Part shown: piece after piece, positions 2 to 9,046 of the stretch
Layout: each line of letters opens with the position of its first letter
How positions within the stretch are numbered: position 1 is the stretch's first letter
DNA from: a virus
IMG/VR virus record: IMGVR_UViG_3300042939_000293
Location: 1 to 28,880 of that record
Direction: 5' to 3' (one strand)
Length of the DNA: 28,880 bases
Notes under the pieces: generated by a model
Seen by the model: only the letters and a program-made list of their open reading frames with translations
What the model was told of the DNA's origin: nothing
Databases searched by the model: none
Position numbers and translations under genes: made by a program

Positions 2-286
2 GACCGAATCATTGAGCGGCTTGATTACATTGAGAGCCGCCTCGCCGAAATTGGTGATGATGTCGAAACCATCAAGAGCCATAAGCCCGGGCGTAAGGGC
101 AAGCCAATCCTTACCTCAGAGGTAGGAGTCTGCGGTCTCGACCCTACGTGTGACTCATCGAAGTGTGATGACGCCACTATCTACCGGTACCAGAAGGGTT
201 GCCGAGGTACTCGCTGTGTCGAGATCAACCGTGACTACTACAGCGATTACCGGGCGAAGAACCGCAACAAGACCTCCGACGAGTGA
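2..286 (+). CDS. Cys-rich small protein upstream of terminase (5' end missing)
   Basis: An open frame enters from the left edge and stops at TGA 284-286, leaving 94 residues. The visible N-terminal part is predicted helical and charged (IIERLDYIESRLAEIGDDVE, coiled-coil-like). The C-terminal half holds five cysteines in the order C-x5-C-x4-C, then C-x4-C (around VCGLDPTCDSSKC and GCRGTRC), followed by a Tyr/Arg/Lys-rich tail. This spacing suggests a small metal-binding or nucleic-acid-binding fold. The stop overlaps the terminase GTG start by 4 nt, so the two are probably translationally coupled. A gene in this position is often the small terminase subunit or another packaging factor, but I do not recognise a small-terminase fold and the start is outside the window. 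The function is therefore only suggested by position. Confidence 0.7.
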   Translation, partial: DRIIERLDYIESRLAEIGDDVETIKSHKPGRKGKPILTSEVGVCGLDPTCDSSKCDDATIYRYQKGCRGTRCVEINRDYYSDYRAKNRNKTSDE

Positions 287-1878
287 GTAGCCCACTCTAT
301 GAGGACCTAGGTCCTCCTGCTGACGACTACGTTCCAACGCAGGAGGACCTAGAGGAACTCAGCCCAGAGCGAGAAGAGACTCCAGAAGACTTCTTGTCGC
401 AAGAGGACAAAGACTTCATCGAGCAGATTGTTCTGAGGACAATCGTCTTCTGCGAGGAACTCGCTGACATGGACCTGCGTCCCTACCAGCGACAGCTCGC
501 TTACCGAATCATCGAGAGCGTGATCATTGGAGACGGTGAGGAAGTCACTGCGCTCTGGTCTCGGCAGAGTGGTAAGAGTCAGACGCTCGCTATCGTGGTA
601 GCGGGGATGTTGGTTCTGTTCCCAAAACTCGCCAAGAGCTTCGAAGAGTTCGACCGATTCAAGCGTGGTCTTTGGGTCGGTATGTTCGCTCCTGTCGACG
701 GACAGAGTGAGTTCATCTACCAAAAGGTGATGGATATCCTCACCAACGATCACGCCAAGGGCATCCTCGATGACCCCGAGATTGACGAGAAGATCTCCAC
801 CGGGTCCAAGCTGCTGAAGCTCCGGTCTGGTTCCATGCTTCGACGCCAGACGGCTAACCCCAAGGCGAAGATCGAAGGTGCTTCCTACCACCTTGTCGTG
901 GTAGATGAGGCACAGGACGCCGACGACACTGTGGTTCGTAAGTCGATTCACCCGATGCTCGCTGCCTACGCAGGCTCCATCGTGAAGATCGGTACGCCCT
1001 CGTTTCACAAGGGGGACTTCTACAAGGCCATTCAGCTCAATAAGCGGCGCTCCACTAAGCGAGGCGCCAAGGTCTGCCACTTCGAATATGACTGGAAGAC
1101 GGTCGCCAAATACAACGAGTACTACGGGAAGTTCATCAAGAAGGAGAAGCTCCGTCTCGGGGAGGACTCCGACGAGTTCCAGATGTCTTACGCACTTCGG
1201 TGGATGCTTGACCGAGGCATGCTCATCACTGATGACGCTTTGGACTACCTATCTGACCCGTCCATGCAGATGGTCAAGGCATGGCACCGCAGCCCGGTTG
1301 TGGTCGGCATCGACCCAGCGAGACTCAATGACTCCACCGTTGTGACGGTCTGCTGGGTGGACTGGGACCATCCCGATGCGGCTGGCTACCGTGAGCACCG
1401 GGTGCTCAATTGGTTGGAGATTCAGAACACCGAGTACGAAGAGCAGTACTACCAGATTGTCGAATTCCTCGATAACTACGATGTCGCTTATCTAGGGGTG
1501 GACGCTCAGGGTATGGGCGGTCCATTCGCCGACCGTTTGAAGCGGCTCATGGGTCATCGCACAGAAGTTATTGAGGTTACTTCTGACCTCAAGAATCAGT
1601 CAGAGCGATGGAAGCACCTGATTCAGTTGCTACAGAGAAACATGGTCATCTATCCGGGCCACTCCAAGGCCCGGAGAACTCGTGTTTGGAAGCGCTTTCG
1701 TCAGCAGATGGAAGACGCTGAGAAGGTCATGAAGAACAGCTATCTGCTTGTTCAGGCCCCGGACGACACCCGTGACGCCCACGACGACTACGTCGATAGT
1801 CTGGCGATTGCGTGTATGATGACGCAGCAGGACAGCGTTCCTGAGGTAGAGATTTCCACGGCACCTTGGTTCCGGTAA
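283..1878 (+). CDS. terL: Terminase large subunit (DNA-packaging ATPase/nuclease)
   Basis: This protein of 531 residues is the motor that pumps phage DNA into the prohead and cuts the concatemer. The N-terminal ATPase domain shows a Walker A-type loop SRQSGKS at about 93-99, a Walker B strand LVVVDEAQDA at about 204-213, and a coupling-motif-like KIGTPS at 235-240. The C-terminal RNase H-like nuclease domain shows the acidic positions expected for two-metal catalysis: GIDPAR (D344), GVDAQG (D407) and HDDYVDSLA (D501/D502/D505). The length is normal for the family. The GTG start overlaps the stop of the upstream gene by 4 nt (GTGA), which supports this start through coupling. It acts at the portal vertex, and the portal gene lies 3.2 kb downstream, separated by unknown genes. 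Family assignment is secure from the motifs; the packaging type (cos, pac or other) cannot be told. Confidence 0.96.
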   Translation: MSSPLYEDLGPPADDYVPTQEDLEELSPEREETPEDFLSQEDKDFIEQIVLRTIVFCEELADMDLRPYQRQLAYRIIESVIIGDGEEVTALWSRQSGKSQTLAIVVAGMLVLFPKLAKSFEEFDRFKRGLWVGMFAPVDGQSEFIYQKVMDILTNDHAKGILDDPEIDEKISTGSKLLKLRSGSMLRRQTANPKAKIEGASYHLVVVDEAQDADDTVVRKSIHPMLAAYAGSIVKIGTPSFHKGDFYKAIQLNKRRSTKRGAKVCHFEYDWKTVAKYNEYYGKFIKKEKLRLGEDSDEFQMSYALRWMLDRGMLITDDALDYLSDPSMQMVKAWHRSPVVVGIDPARLNDSTVVTVCWVDWDHPDAAGYREHRVLNWLEIQNTEYEEQYYQIVEFLDNYDVAYLGVDAQGMGGPFADRLKRLMGHRTEVIEVTSDLKNQSERWKHLIQLLQRNMVIYPGHSKARRTRVWKRFRQQMEDAEKVMKNSYLLVQAPDDTRDAHDDYVDSLAIACMMTQQDSVPEVEISTAPWFR

Positions 1879-1947: not shown

Positions 1948-2298
1948 ATGTCATACGCTCCCGAGACCGGTTACGAGGCCGCTTACGCCCCGAGCATTCC
2001 CGGTAACAAGGGTCCTCTTCGCTTTGAAGAGGGCGTTGCTACCGACACAGACGTTCCATTTGAGTTCGGTCGTGGTGCCTACGAGGACACCGTTGGTTCT
2101 GTCAACCTCGGTTGGCCGATCAAGGACCCGATGGAGACCATGCGTGAGCGTGCTCACGTTGGGTCAGCCACTTGGATCGAGGCCCCGATGCAGCTTTCCG
2201 AGTTCGTTCAGGGCGCAGGCATGGACCACCCGAACTTTGAGCGGGTAGCTGGTTCGGAGATGCGGATCCAGCGCTGGAATCCGACCCGAGTCGGCTGA
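1948..2298 (+). CDS. Hypothetical protein, 116 aa
   Basis: A small acidic protein that I do not recognise. It begins at ATG with a good Shine-Dalgarno sequence (AAGGAG, 11 nt upstream). No signal peptide, membrane segment or known motif is visible; the sequence is Gly/Pro/Glu-rich with little obvious secondary structure in the first 50 residues. It is the first of five unknown genes between terminase and portal, and a candidate promoter precedes it. A role as a minor virion or packaging accessory protein would fit the position, but nothing in the sequence shows it. Confidence 0.82.
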   Translation: MSYAPETGYEAAYAPSIPGNKGPLRFEEGVATDTDVPFEFGRGAYEDTVGSVNLGWPIKDPMETMRERAHVGSATWIEAPMQLSEFVQGAGMDHPNFERVAGSEMRIQRWNPTRVG

Positions 2299-3467: not shown

Positions 3468-3746
3468 ATGAGCTTTCCCACCAACTTTGGTACATCAGGG
3501 AAAGCCGGTCGCCCCGCCAAGGCCAAGCCAGTTGTCCTGCGTGCTCCCGAAGAGCAGTCAGGATTTGAGTGGGCGTCTGCGTCGATGAACCCTGAAGCTA
3601 TCCAGAGGGTTCAGGACAACTACATCAAGACCCAGCAGATGCCCCCGGGTCTGGCACCGAAGGGGATTACGTTGCCGAATCCTCTGGAAGCACGTCGCCA
3701 GCGCTCCATCTCGGCGGGCTGGCGTAATCCAAGAGGAGCAGCGTAA
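3468..3746 (+). CDS. Hypothetical protein, 92 aa
   Basis: A small basic protein with many Pro, Lys and Arg residues (about GKAGRPAKAKPVVLRAPEEQ near residues 11-30) and no recognisable domain. The ATG lies 2 nt after the stop of the preceding small ORF, and its TAA overlaps the ATG of the next gene by 1 nt, so it belongs to a translationally coupled run. The basic composition would be compatible with binding DNA or an acidic partner, but that is inference from composition only. Confidence 0.75.
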   Translation: MSFPTNFGTSGKAGRPAKAKPVVLRAPEEQSGFEWASASMNPEAIQRVQDNYIKTQQMPPGLAPKGITLPNPLEARRQRSISAGWRNPRGAA

Positions 3747-5083
3747 TGGCTAGGAGAAGATCAGAGCACGAGCGTCTACCCACACATGAGGTGGAGACAT
3801 CTCGACTTCTTCCCCCCGGGCGGGCTGGGGGTGGCTTACCAAAGAACCGTTCTAAATTCGTTAAAGAACCGAAGCCCCTCACCACAGAGGAAATCAATAG
3901 TGCTCGTAGAGCACGATCCGCTCGCCGTAGGTGGGAACAAACTCCAGAAGGTCAGGCGAGGACTTCTGACGCCCGAACATTGCTACAGACTGGGATGTCG
4001 AACAGCCAGATTTACCGGGGATCCGAGTGGGACGAGCAGACCGGCGTTGGCCCTAGGCATTACGACAGGCAGCTACCCGGTCTTGAGGACCCTAATGCAG
4101 CTCCCAGACCTCCAAAGTGGGAAGAGCTTGATCCCAATACTCGTGCCCACATCGAAAGAGGTCTTGCTCAACATGGAACAAGCATTGACCAGATGTCGTC
4201 GGACTGGGGCGCACAGCTAGATCAAGCGTACCTCCGGATGGAGAGCTACGGACATACCAACCCCGCAGGAATGGATTTCTACGAAGGCGGTTTGCCTCGG
4301 AGAGTAATCGACAGTTCTGCACGGGAACTAGGTGTTCCGCAGAGCGTTCACGCTGCACTTAATGCCATCACTTCTCCCAATACCACATTCATGGTTACCC
4401 CAAAGAGTGGCCCTCGTGTGGGGGAAACATACTTCCCGAATAATGAAGCAGCAGAGCATGCTATCCGACACATCCAGCAGGGCGGTACTTCAGAGAACAT
4501 CAGCAATGTGCGTAGTTCTGTACAACTACCGGAGGGTGTTAGTACAGCAGGAAGGCTGACGGCCAGACCCGCAAACCTAGTAAAGGCAGCAAGAGCCTAT
4601 GAACAGTACCTTGCGGGTAAGTCTATTAAGGATTGGCGAGGGGAGCCCAGTGAGAGTAATCCGGAAGGGACCCCTATGCTTTCTTCCAAAACTGGGCCAT
4701 ACGCCAATTCTTGGTCGGATACCCACCCTCAGTTCTTCGTAGCTGACGTTCATTCAGGCGGGGCAATGCTGCCTCACTTGTCAACTGACAAGCCTGTCAT
4801 GGTGGACAGTAAAGGTAATCCGCTCTTGTCTGAGACCGGACAGATTCGTCGTCATAAATCAGAGCGGGAGCGCGCTATCGAAAAGATTCCGTACTTTCAT
4901 ACAGCGGCCGATTACGCAGCCCGTCTTGCTATGAATGCTCGGGGTCTCGGATCTATTAGAGACTCTCAAGCCACACAGTGGCACGAGGAGCAGGTCCAAC
5001 GTGGTCTTGTTGACCCCGACGAGGCTTACGGACATACAGCTAGCGCACCAGTGGAAGATCCAAACCAGCTCAACTTGTTTTAA
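3746..5083 (+). CDS. Putative DNA-transaction protein with C-terminal clamp-binding-like motif (QLNLF)
   Basis: 445 residues. The first 70 are basic and look disordered. The part from about 170 to 420 is mostly helical: GMDFYEGGLP..., then HAALNAITSPNTTF (about 202-215), KAARAYEQYLAGKS (280-293), a His/Asp segment FVADVHSGG (331-339), and a final helix pair ending RDSQATQWHEEQ (405-416). This order resembles a phage family of unknown function that I remember as DUF7178-like, with an A-x-SP-N turn, an invariant D-x-H and a terminal QA-x2-W; this is a memory-based match, not a search. The last five residues, QLNLF, fit the bacterial beta-sliding-clamp binding consensus QL(S/D)LF closely and sit at an exposed C-terminus. 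An inferred role is a replication- or repair-linked DNA enzyme recruited to the host clamp. The start overlaps the preceding stop by 1 nt. Confidence 0.8.
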   Translation: MARRRSEHERLPTHEVETSRLLPPGRAGGGLPKNRSKFVKEPKPLTTEEINSARRARSARRRWEQTPEGQARTSDARTLLQTGMSNSQIYRGSEWDEQTGVGPRHYDRQLPGLEDPNAAPRPPKWEELDPNTRAHIERGLAQHGTSIDQMSSDWGAQLDQAYLRMESYGHTNPAGMDFYEGGLPRRVIDSSARELGVPQSVHAALNAITSPNTTFMVTPKSGPRVGETYFPNNEAAEHAIRHIQQGGTSENISNVRSSVQLPEGVSTAGRLTARPANLVKAARAYEQYLAGKSIKDWRGEPSESNPEGTPMLSSKTGPYANSWSDTHPQFFVADVHSGGAMLPHLSTDKPVMVDSKGNPLLSETGQIRRHKSERERAIEKIPYFHTAADYAARLAMNARGLGSIRDSQATQWHEEQVQRGLVDPDEAYGHTASAPVEDPNQLNLF

Positions 5084-5097
5084 GTTAGACTCGGATC

Positions 5098-6756
5098 GTG
5101 ATCAACTTCCACCCACCGTCGTACCGAGCTGCCGCCAGCGACCTCACGGTAGCCATTTCTCCCCTCGGGCTAGTAGAGCTTGCAGACGAGGAGTTTGAGG
5201 TACACGGCCCACGGATGAATCGCTACGCCAGCAACTGGGCGTGGTACCTCGGACACCACTGGGCATACAAGCGGGAGATTGGTGACCCGCAGATCACCGT
5301 CAACTACGTCAAGGCGCTTCAGGACTACCTGATCAACTTCACCTTTGGGAAGAGCGTCCACTTCGGATCGCCTGAGGCGACGGCGTCCATCGTCCCGCAC
5401 ATCCTGAAGCGGGTATGGGATAACGACAACGACCGGGAATCCCTCATCTGGGAGATCGGACAGCTCGGTGGCGTGGGCGGCGACGCATTCGTGAAGGTGG
5501 CCTATGAGCCGCCGTTCCAGAACTCTCTCGGAGAGAACATCCCGGGCAAGTGCCGCATCCTCCCGCTGAACCCGGCATTCTGCTTCCCAGAGTTTCACCC
5601 CCACGACCGGTCCCGCTTCATCAAGTTCAAGCTGAAGTACAAGTTCTGGGGAACCGCTACCGACGGAACTCGTCAGATTCACACCTACACCGAGCTGATG
5701 ACGGACGAGATGATTGAGGAGTACATCAACGATGAACTCATCGATCAGCGGCCCAACCCACTTGGACGGATCCCGATTGCTTTCGTTCCCAACCTGCCTG
5801 TCGCTTCCAGTCCATGGGGACTCTCGGACATCAACGACATCATTTCGCTGAATCGTGAGTACAACGAGAAGGCGACCGAGATCTCGGACATCATCAACTA
5901 CCACTCGGCCCCTGTAACAGTTATCACTGGGGCCAAGGCGTCCACACTGGAGCGTGGCCCCAAGAAAGTGTGGGGTATCCCCAACAAGGATGCTCGGATC
6001 ACCAACCTCCAATTGGAGGGGAACCTCTCCGGGCCGCTTGGTTATCTGGAGATGATCAAGACCTCGATGCACGAATTGATGGGCGTTCCCATGGGTGCGC
6101 TGGGCCAGATGAACCCCATCTCCAACACGTCCGGTGTAGCTCTGCACATGCAGTACCTGCCTCTGATGCAGCGCTACCAACACAAGAAGATCCAGTACAG
6201 CAAGCTGTTCAAGCAGATCAACGAGTTCGTCATCCGGTACATCGCTATCTATGAGCCGGATTGGATGAAGTACAACCCGTTTATCGCTGCGGCGCCCCCG
6301 AAGAAGAACCAGTACATGGAACTGGATCCCACCGATCCAGCATCATTCAGATCCACAATTGAGTGGCCCACTCCGCTCCCAATGGACACGCTTCTCAAGC
6401 TCAACGAAGAACAGGCGAAGATCTCCATGGGCCTCAGCTCCAAGCGGTCTGCACTCAAGGGACTTGGAGAAGCGTTCCCGGACCAGAAGATGCAGGAAAT
6501 CTTCGAAGAGGCTGTCGAGGACACGAAGCAGCAGGGATCTCTCCAGCTCGTTCAGGCGCAGACATCCCAGTTCATCATTCAGGCAACCGGCATGACTCCC
6601 GACGGTCAGCCGCTCGTACTACCGGGTATGGATCAGGTAGACGAGAACGGAAACCCTGTCGGAATGGCTCCCGCCGTAGACCCGATGCTGGCGCAGGAAA
6701 TCATCGCTGGGGCGTATGACATGTACCCCGCAGCCCGTGATGATTTTGAAGAATAA
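5098..6756 (+). CDS. Portal protein (SPP1 gp6-like)
   Basis: 552 residues. It forms the ring at the unique capsid vertex through which the terminase packages DNA and to which the neck attaches. The family is recognised from the central segment NPLGRIPIAFVPNLP (about 220-234) followed by a proline-rich turn and SDINDIISLNREYNEKATEI (243-262), then the strand PVTVITGAK (272-280), and from helices around MHELMGVPMGALG (324-336) that match the SPP1-type portal clip/stem/wing order. The C-terminal about 100 residues are Gln/Glu-rich and Pro/Gly-rich, as is common for portal tails. It starts at GTG with no strong Shine-Dalgarno sequence, 14 nt after the previous gene. Length is typical. Scaffold and capsid genes follow directly, as in most tailed phages. 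Confidence 0.92.
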   Translation: MINFHPPSYRAAASDLTVAISPLGLVELADEEFEVHGPRMNRYASNWAWYLGHHWAYKREIGDPQITVNYVKALQDYLINFTFGKSVHFGSPEATASIVPHILKRVWDNDNDRESLIWEIGQLGGVGGDAFVKVAYEPPFQNSLGENIPGKCRILPLNPAFCFPEFHPHDRSRFIKFKLKYKFWGTATDGTRQIHTYTELMTDEMIEEYINDELIDQRPNPLGRIPIAFVPNLPVASSPWGLSDINDIISLNREYNEKATEISDIINYHSAPVTVITGAKASTLERGPKKVWGIPNKDARITNLQLEGNLSGPLGYLEMIKTSMHELMGVPMGALGQMNPISNTSGVALHMQYLPLMQRYQHKKIQYSKLFKQINEFVIRYIAIYEPDWMKYNPFIAAAPPKKNQYMELDPTDPASFRSTIEWPTPLPMDTLLKLNEEQAKISMGLSSKRSALKGLGEAFPDQKMQEIFEEAVEDTKQQGSLQLVQAQTSQFIIQATGMTPDGQPLVLPGMDQVDENGNPVGMAPAVDPMLAQEIIAGAYDMYPAARDDFEE

Positions 6757-7726: not shown

Positions 7727-9046
7727 ATGGCTTTTCAGCTACCCGACAGCTCGGGCGTAACCGGTACTGGGAGAATCGCTTCCGGTGTCACTGGTTCTGC
7801 CTACGCTGACCCGGCTTCAGTAACCGCTCCTGCTGGCGTAAACGTCGCTGGTTACGGTGCGTCACCGGCTACCGGTACGACGCTCCTTTCCCCGGCGATT
7901 CAGACCATCTGGTCGAAGGAGATTCTCTTTCAGGCCATGCCGGTCCTGCGCTTTGAGCAGTTCGCCGTAAAGAAGACGGAGCTGGGTGTCATGCCCGGTC
8001 TCACCGTCAACTTCATGCGCTACAACAACCTGCCGATCCCCTCGGGTCCGCTGGTTGAGGGCATCCGCATGAAGACCCATGGCATCTCGGCCCAGCAGTA
8101 CCGCATCACGGTTGCTGAGCAGGGCTTCGCCGTCGCTGTATCCGAGCTGCTCCTGAATGCCTCGTTCGATGACGTAATGGCCTCGGCCTCACGTCTTCTG
8201 GGCCGCAACATGGCCCTGTACATGGACGTACAGGCTCGTGAGACGCTCACCAGCGCATCCTCGGTTGTCTACGGGTACACCGGACCAACTGACCTGACGA
8301 CCAACTACGGCATCTACAACAAGGGCACGCAGGGCGACGCCATCACCGGTGGCACCAACAACCTCTCTGCTGGCGGGTACTTCTTCACCCCGCACGCCGT
8401 CAAGGATGCTGTTCTTGAGCTGTCCACGAAGAACATCCCCCGGCTGGGCGAGACCTACGTCTGCTTCATCCACCCGTCGCAGAGCCGTCAGCTCCGTGAC
8501 ACCCCGGAGTTCATCGAGGTCACCAAGTACGCCGCTCCCGGTAACTTCATGCTGGGCGAGATCGGCCGTCTCTACGATGTGGTCTTCATCGAGACCACGC
8601 AGGTAGGCACGGTCGCTCAGTCCGGTGCGAACACCTACCCGGCGCTTGAGACCTACGACAACGGCACCGCTCTTGACTGGCGCTCCTCGACCGAGCTTGA
8701 TGTCAACAAGGGCGACTCGACCGCTACTCTGGACGACAGCCCCTCGGCGTCGACCTCAGCGGAGCCAGACGAGGCTCCGGGTGAGACGGCGGTTCCGGGC
8801 TGGGACCAGAAGTGGCCGAACCCGTACCCGGACAAGGTCCCGACCTCAGGTTCCGAGACCGCTGATGTCTTTGAGGCCATCATGCTCGGTGACAACGCCT
8901 TCGGGCACGCCATCTCCCTGCCGGTCGAGCTTCGTGACGGTGGTGTTCTTGACTTCGGTCGTGAGCACGCTCTCGCTTGGTACTCGATCTGGGGCTTTGG
9001 TCTCGTCACCGACAGCGCTGTCGTCAAGATCCGCACCAACGCCTGA
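7727..9046 (+). CDS. Major capsid protein (N4 gp56-like, HK97 fold)
   Basis: 439 residues that assemble the icosahedral shell. Recognition rests on the N4-gp56-type pattern: an N-terminal arm, LSPAIQTIWSKEILFQAMPVL (about 54-74), the glycine-rich TVNFMRYNNLP stretch (93-103), VAVSELLLNAS (136-146), HPSQSRQLRDTPEFI (249-263) and the LGEIGRLYDVVFIETTQV strand (276-293). An unusual low-complexity segment, rich in Asp, Ser, Pro and Thr, occupies about residues 293-376 before the fold resumes with DVFEAIMLGDNAFG. The Shine-Dalgarno sequence is GGAGGG. The codon choice is GC-richer than in many neighbours, as expected of a highly expressed gene. A strong hairpin follows the stop codon. Confidence 0.9.
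   Translation: MAFQLPDSSGVTGTGRIASGVTGSAYADPASVTAPAGVNVAGYGASPATGTTLLSPAIQTIWSKEILFQAMPVLRFEQFAVKKTELGVMPGLTVNFMRYNNLPIPSGPLVEGIRMKTHGISAQQYRITVAEQGFAVAVSELLLNASFDDVMASASRLLGRNMALYMDVQARETLTSASSVVYGYTGPTDLTTNYGIYNKGTQGDAITGGTNNLSAGGYFFTPHAVKDAVLELSTKNIPRLGETYVCFIHPSQSRQLRDTPEFIEVTKYAAPGNFMLGEIGRLYDVVFIETTQVGTVAQSGANTYPALETYDNGTALDWRSSTELDVNKGDSTATLDDSPSASTSAEPDEAPGETAVPGWDQKWPNPYPDKVPTSGSETADVFEAIMLGDNAFGHAISLPVELRDGGVLDFGREHALAWYSIWGFGLVTDSAVVKIRTNA

Follow-up and report, generated by a model that had tools for sequence, protein, structure and literature searches.

The gene and its slot between terminase and portal

The window, by which we mean the whole 28,880-base stretch of a virus record that was analysed, carries on its plus strand an uninterrupted open reading frame (positions 3746–5083, with the TAA stop codon at 5081–5083) that encodes a 445-amino-acid protein, P0001, for which homologues were found. 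As an earlier note on this DNA had stated, the gene lies between the genes for the terminase large subunit (283–1878, plus strand) and the portal protein (5098–6756, plus strand). A ribosome-binding site, AAGAGGAG (3731–3738, plus strand), is located 7 bases upstream of the ATG at 3746, and this ATG overlaps, as TAATG, the stop codon of a 92-amino-acid gene (3468–3746, plus strand) that is conserved at this place in many relatives; the small gene that follows the terminase (1948–2298, plus strand) is conserved in relatives too. The portal protein of the window is 54% identical to those of the Streptomyces phages BRock and GiJojo, whose genomes measure ~112–115 kb and of which BRock is a virulent myovirus (PMC7453282). 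The major capsid protein of the window (7727–9046, 439 amino acids) matches that of GiJojo and BRock (340 amino acids) in two pieces, which suggests an inserted domain of ~100 residues.

Relatives were drawn from 77 related viral loci, metagenomic and Borockvirus-like, that were obtained by a scan with the portal protein, and from one further scan. The usual gene order in these loci is terminase, a conserved gene of ~120 amino acids, usually a gene of ~100 amino acids, the gene in the position of P0001 (henceforth referred to as the slot) and the portal gene, sometimes with further genes between. Wherever the slot stretch was resolved, it usually held a member of one of three families. The first, FamA, consists of P0001 and six other distinct homologues (from loci L013, L046, L078, L082, L085 and L086; 33–52% identity), to which an additional one-protein scan added no further members; the second, FamB, with 25 distinct C-termini, occupies this position in many other loci; and the third is DUF7178 (PF23802). 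FamB and DUF7178 aligned as profiles at E 1.5e-5, and the matches of FamB proteins to PF23802 (best 8e-5) fall below the Pfam cut-off. A DUF7178-like domain also occurs inside a giant protein of ~2,039 amino acids (L135:171-6290, gene 173 of Rctr197k). P0001 itself had no match in Pfam, PHROGs, NCBIfam or PADLOC, and tblastn with P0001 against 50,697 phages returned no match at E 1e-5 nor at E 10; no defence-system match was found for P0001, and no FamA member was found in GTDB genomes.

In the two loci with the closest portal proteins (L003 and L004, 75%) the slot is taken by a different gene, which indicates that slot genes are exchangeable. The product of that gene (L003:100-903; L004:1319-2122) reads as having a peptidoglycan-binding-type domain. 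Since the isolates BRock and GiJojo also lack a gene of the P0001 type, we regard P0001 as the product of an accessory gene and not as an essential part of the packaging apparatus. The same two observations weigh against the suggestion, raised by the location between terminase and portal, that P0001 has a minor structural or packaging role, such as head completion or a MuF-like function, and that its LF end is incidental. We give this little credence, as P0001 matches no structural family and its predicted fold, described below, is glycosylase-like and not the virion-structural one that the earlier note had held against its own proposal. The GC content at third codon positions (GC3) is 0.49 in the P0001 gene and 0.70–0.77 in the genes for terminase, portal and capsid. 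The slot gene also had a lower GC3 than the portal gene in 12 of the 13 other loci for which this was measured; the pattern is suggestive of, but not decisive for, a cargo origin.

Clamp-type motifs at the C-termini of slot proteins

P0001 ends exactly in QLNLF (residues 441–445; 5066–5080, plus strand), which is followed directly by the TAA stop codon. The reading of this end as a match to the clamp-binding consensus at a free C-terminus was borne out: the C-terminal tail (residues 420–445; 5003–5080, plus strand) is probably flexible, given a pLDDT below 50 for residues 419–445, and motifs of this type recur above chance. All five residues are those of the clamp motif of E. coli UmuC (357-QLNLF-361), which has been crystallised as a peptide with the clamp (PMC3716654), and Streptomyces NucS carries KLRLF (PMC11109965). 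Alignment of the C-termini of homologues, which the earlier note had advised, revealed variants of the motif in FamA (QLNLF, QGKLF, QESLF, QESLF, HPTLF and QFDFG, with one loss, in L078). FamB ends include QQELF, QGSLFD, QGTLF, QLDLGF, QMSFGF, QMDFGF, QGELFG, QGALF, QLGLGL, QLTLPGID and QLGLF, among others. QLxLF, QLGLGL and QLTLPG are known classes of clamp motif, and the variants seen at these ends fall in classes that bacterial clamps accept.

A strict clamp pattern was matched by 20 of the 32 distinct FamA and FamB C-termini, compared to 0.03–0.04 expected from shuffles. Taken separately, four of seven FamA ends were strict matches (five under a relaxed pattern; 0.004–0.0075 strict matches expected from shuffles of the last 60 residues), as were 16 of 25 FamB ends (20 relaxed; 0.03 strict matches expected on average from the same kind of shuffle). 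Among 596 control open reading frames, four matched the strict pattern; all four lie in the same loci and three come from one family. None of nine DUF7178 slot members has a clamp-type tail. Between the last Trp of the core and the terminal motif the sequence of FamA and FamB proteins varies freely, which is the behaviour of a linear motif, and this motif is common to both families although the two are only remotely related. Five of the 25 FamB tails (L031, L044, L094, L099 and L103) contain two clamp-type motifs ~30–35 residues apart, where 0.01 would be expected. As the sliding clamp is a dimer with two binding sites, such tails may allow a two-point attachment.

Clamp-type ends were also seen elsewhere in the region. 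Proteins of the phrog_3170 type form another family with such a C-terminus (L094:769-1788, QQLRLF; L103:3231-3974, QQMRLF; L073:4825-5589, EQLSLF). A protein that looks ADP-ribosyltransferase-like, with no library match (L060:2585-3559, also in L062), has DPNQGTLF as its last eight residues, an end that it shares with the FamB protein of L036. In the window, the 306-amino-acid product of the gene two upstream of P0001 (2340–3260, plus strand) ends in RRNLF, as does its close homologue in L001; this end lacks the Gln of the clamp motif.

In three relatives of ~117 kb (124–135 open reading frames each) exactly one gene per genome has a clamp-type end, and it always lies in or beside the slot and not among the replication genes: a FamA gene in the first, a FamB gene in the second and, in the third, a gene from this region whose product is ADP-ribosyltransferase-like. 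This restriction fits a virion-targeting signal as well as a clamp ligand and so counts against our preferred reading. The chief rival is that the C-terminal peptide is a cargo-loading signal that binds scaffold, portal or capsid, with the slot proteins being packed into the head and injected, and their cores acting early in the next host. In its favour, only genes of the packaging slot carry the motif, their products have several folds (FamA and FamB, the phrog_3170-type proteins of L073, L094 and L103 and the ADP-ribosyltransferase-like protein of L060) and the slot is variable, like injected-effector slots. We nevertheless consider cargo loading unlikely, since the variants (QLxLF, QLGLGL, QLDLGF, QMSFGF, QLTLPG) follow known classes of clamp motif, the binding of QLNLF to the clamp is established (PMC3716654) and DUF7178 proteins occupy the same slot without the signal.

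The relatives contain no clamp (DnaN) detectable with PF02768, so the partner of the tail would be the DnaN of the host. No match to the alpha subunit of polymerase III was found in them either, and they encode their own PolA-type polymerase, which counts against assuming that the host clamp is used on phage DNA. A PolA-type polymerase of their own and no detectable clamp, together with a terminal clamp motif that is sometimes present twice per protein, would suit a clamp poison, that is, a tail that occupies the host clamp and stops host replication or repair, attached to a catalytically dead binding module. This we judge quite unlikely, as the invariant Lys, Asp and Trp of the large core suggest catalysis and the position of the gene suggests late expression.

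The predicted core

The body of P0001 comprises a variable N-terminal part (residues 1–121; 3746–4108, plus strand), modelled with low confidence, and a core (residues 122–419; 4109–5002, plus strand) that was modelled by AlphaFold2 on a trimmed alignment of FamA and DUF7178 with a pLDDT of 82.1 and a pTM of 0.72. A first full-length AlphaFold model, from FamA alone, was poor (pLDDT 53), and even so the HhH-GPD superfamily occupied ranks 1–11 of its structural matches. With the core model, VIA-align placed members of the HhH-GPD superfamily in 48, or nearly so, of the best 50 PDB entries, Nab2 being the clear exception. The best match was DUF2419 (Z 7.6, rmsd 5.2 over 219 residues, ~9% identity), followed by D. 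radiodurans EndoIII (Z 6.9, rmsd 4.6, 181 residues), MagIII (Z 6.8, rmsd 4.1, 172 residues), MutYX (Z 6.8, rmsd 3.9, 171 residues), MutY (Z 6.4) and hOGG1 (Z 6.1, rmsd 3.7, 161 residues); as all Z values are below 8, the fold match is no proof by Z alone. The best Foldseek E for the core was only 0.049, and its nearest match in BFVD was a protein of Synechococcus phage S-CBP42 (E 1.3e-3). The core is thus predicted to fold like a base-excising HhH-GPD glycosylase, in keeping with the glycosylase-like enzyme that the earlier note had envisaged. Weak Foldseek matches to Slt, MltF and MltE hint at a lysozyme- or lytic-transglycosylase-like protein, but their TM-scores of 0.13–0.2 and probabilities of ~0.1 or less lie below those of the DUF2419 matches (TM 0.34–0.38) and none is among the best 50 PDB entries of the core search, so that we find this assignment scarcely credible.

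Six blocks line up between FamA and DUF7178, with K315, D334 and W412 invariant. The first motif, S210-P211-N212 (4373–4381, plus strand), shares S-P with DUF7178 and FamB (AxxSPN/Q); it had been described as an A-x-SP-N turn, of which S-P-N is present and the spacing is really A-x-x-S-P-N (AITSPN, residues 207–212). NLVKAA (residues 277–282; 4574–4591, plus strand) aligns with RNLHKAAQ of MutY. K315 (4688–4690, plus strand) is kept in FamA, FamB and DUF7178 and aligns with K120 of EndoIII and S120 of MutY. The D-x-H pair and the terminal QA-x2-W that had been picked out by eye correspond to D334-V-H336 (4745–4753, plus strand), in which D334 is invariant in FamA and DUF7178 and aligns with the catalytic Asp (EndoIII D138), and to Q408-A-T-Q-W412 (4967–4981, plus strand), in which the Gln is near-invariant and the Trp invariant in all three slot families. 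FamB keeps a Lys and an Asp in the corresponding blocks. In FamA an invariant D-[VI]-H ... P-H-L pattern surrounds a mostly glycine-rich loop (residues 334–345; 4745–4780), which sits where glycosylases have a helix and is a possible metal or phosphate site.

A profile of FamA and DUF7178 aligned by hhalign to one of MutY and EndoIII, built from 31 bacterial sequences, at E 2.8e-4 (score 33.8), a value that, being the best of 18 query–target pairs tried, corrects to nearer 0.005. The best of ten unrelated slices reached E 0.042 (score 19.5), and reversed profiles 0.076 or worse. FamA alone against MutY or MutY and EndoIII gave only 0.09–0.18, and DUF7178 alone had no significant match to the EndoIII or MutY profiles. 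The joint alignment pairs K315-T with the Lys/Ser-Thr of the hairpin and D334 with the catalytic Asp, so that K315 and D334 probably stand in register with the catalytic Lys and Asp positions, at the level of a remote alignment. They are 19 residues apart, the same spacing as between K249 and D268 of human OGG1. Neither P0001 (E≤0.1) nor its core (E≤1) matched PF00730, P0001 had no match to the DUF7178 HMM (PF23802) at E≤1, and hmmsearch of the family profiles against PDB sequences gave no match. The LPG[VI]G (LPGVG) hairpin is absent, its place in the alignments being taken by SSKT or [NA][ST]PKT-type sequences. Because of the missing hairpin and the missing PF00730 match we do not file P0001 as an HhH-GPD family member; the FamA/DUF7178 core would instead represent a remote, new glycosylase-like family of predicted activity.

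A possible role and its parallels

The combination of a clamp-type tail and a glycosylase-like core suggests a phage enzyme that is brought to replicating DNA. In our best explanation, to which we assign a probability of about 0.52, P0001 is a DNA-acting enzyme with a remote HhH-GPD-like core (residues ~122–419) and a flexible 26-residue clamp-binding tail, and acts on DNA while tethered to the clamp; clamp binding and glycosylase activity are both properties that we infer. Judging from gene order and overlap, P0001 would be made together with the terminase–portal gene block. Its tail would then dock QLNLF in the hydrophobic cleft of host DnaN, as expected for relatives without a detectable clamp, and the tethered core would scan clamp-loaded, newly made DNA and, at one particular base, cleave or exchange the glycosidic bond; its Lys/Asp pair would be K315 and D334, as the profile alignment suggests. 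Such an activity might benefit phage DNA ahead of packaging, be it by modifying bases, by quality control or by taking out a restriction-sensitive base, or it might damage the DNA of the host at replication forks. A reading as thymine hypermodification or as 7-deazaguanine chemistry is without support, since thymidylate synthase, QueC and TGT/DpdA are all absent from the relatives. Only tentatively do we extend the preferred reading to a class of phages with an exchangeable terminase–portal slot for DNA enzymes that ride the host clamp, including a new glycosylase-like superfamily (FamA, FamB and DUF7178) that would edit or mark newly replicated DNA before packaging. If true, this would provide a fold and a likely chemistry for DUF7178, identify phage proteins that reach the bacterial clamp via a linear motif, and tie base excision or exchange to replicating phage DNA through a gene that belongs to the packaging block.

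Several known systems offer parallels. DUF7178 proteins (PF23802; phrog_3842), a phage family without assigned function, occupy the same pre-portal slot in related phages and share with FamA the blocks S-P, N..KA, KT..[FY], V.D..[HR] and Q...W; core to core, the two aligned by hhalign at 0.009, compared to 0.15–0.67 for reversed controls, which supports the remote relationship that had been guessed earlier. FamA differs from DUF7178 in its longer N-terminus, in the mostly Gly-rich loop after D334 and in the clamp-type tail. The HhH-GPD glycosylases (EndoIII, MutY, OGG1 and MagIII; PF00730) are the best structural matches of the predicted core but have the hairpin and the PF00730 match that P0001 lacks. 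DUF2419, a queuosine-salvage glycosylase, gave the highest Z for the core, whereas the relatives of P0001 are without QueC or TGT/DpdA genes. A precedent for a phage DNA-modifying enzyme on a clamp is the alpha-glucosyltransferase of T4, which co-purifies with the T4 clamp gp45 (PMC13216743); this enzyme uses the phage's own clamp and its fold is unrelated to that of P0001. UmuC, finally, carries QLNLF internally in a polymerase, whereas P0001 carries the same five residues at the C-terminus of a protein predicted to be glycosylase-like.
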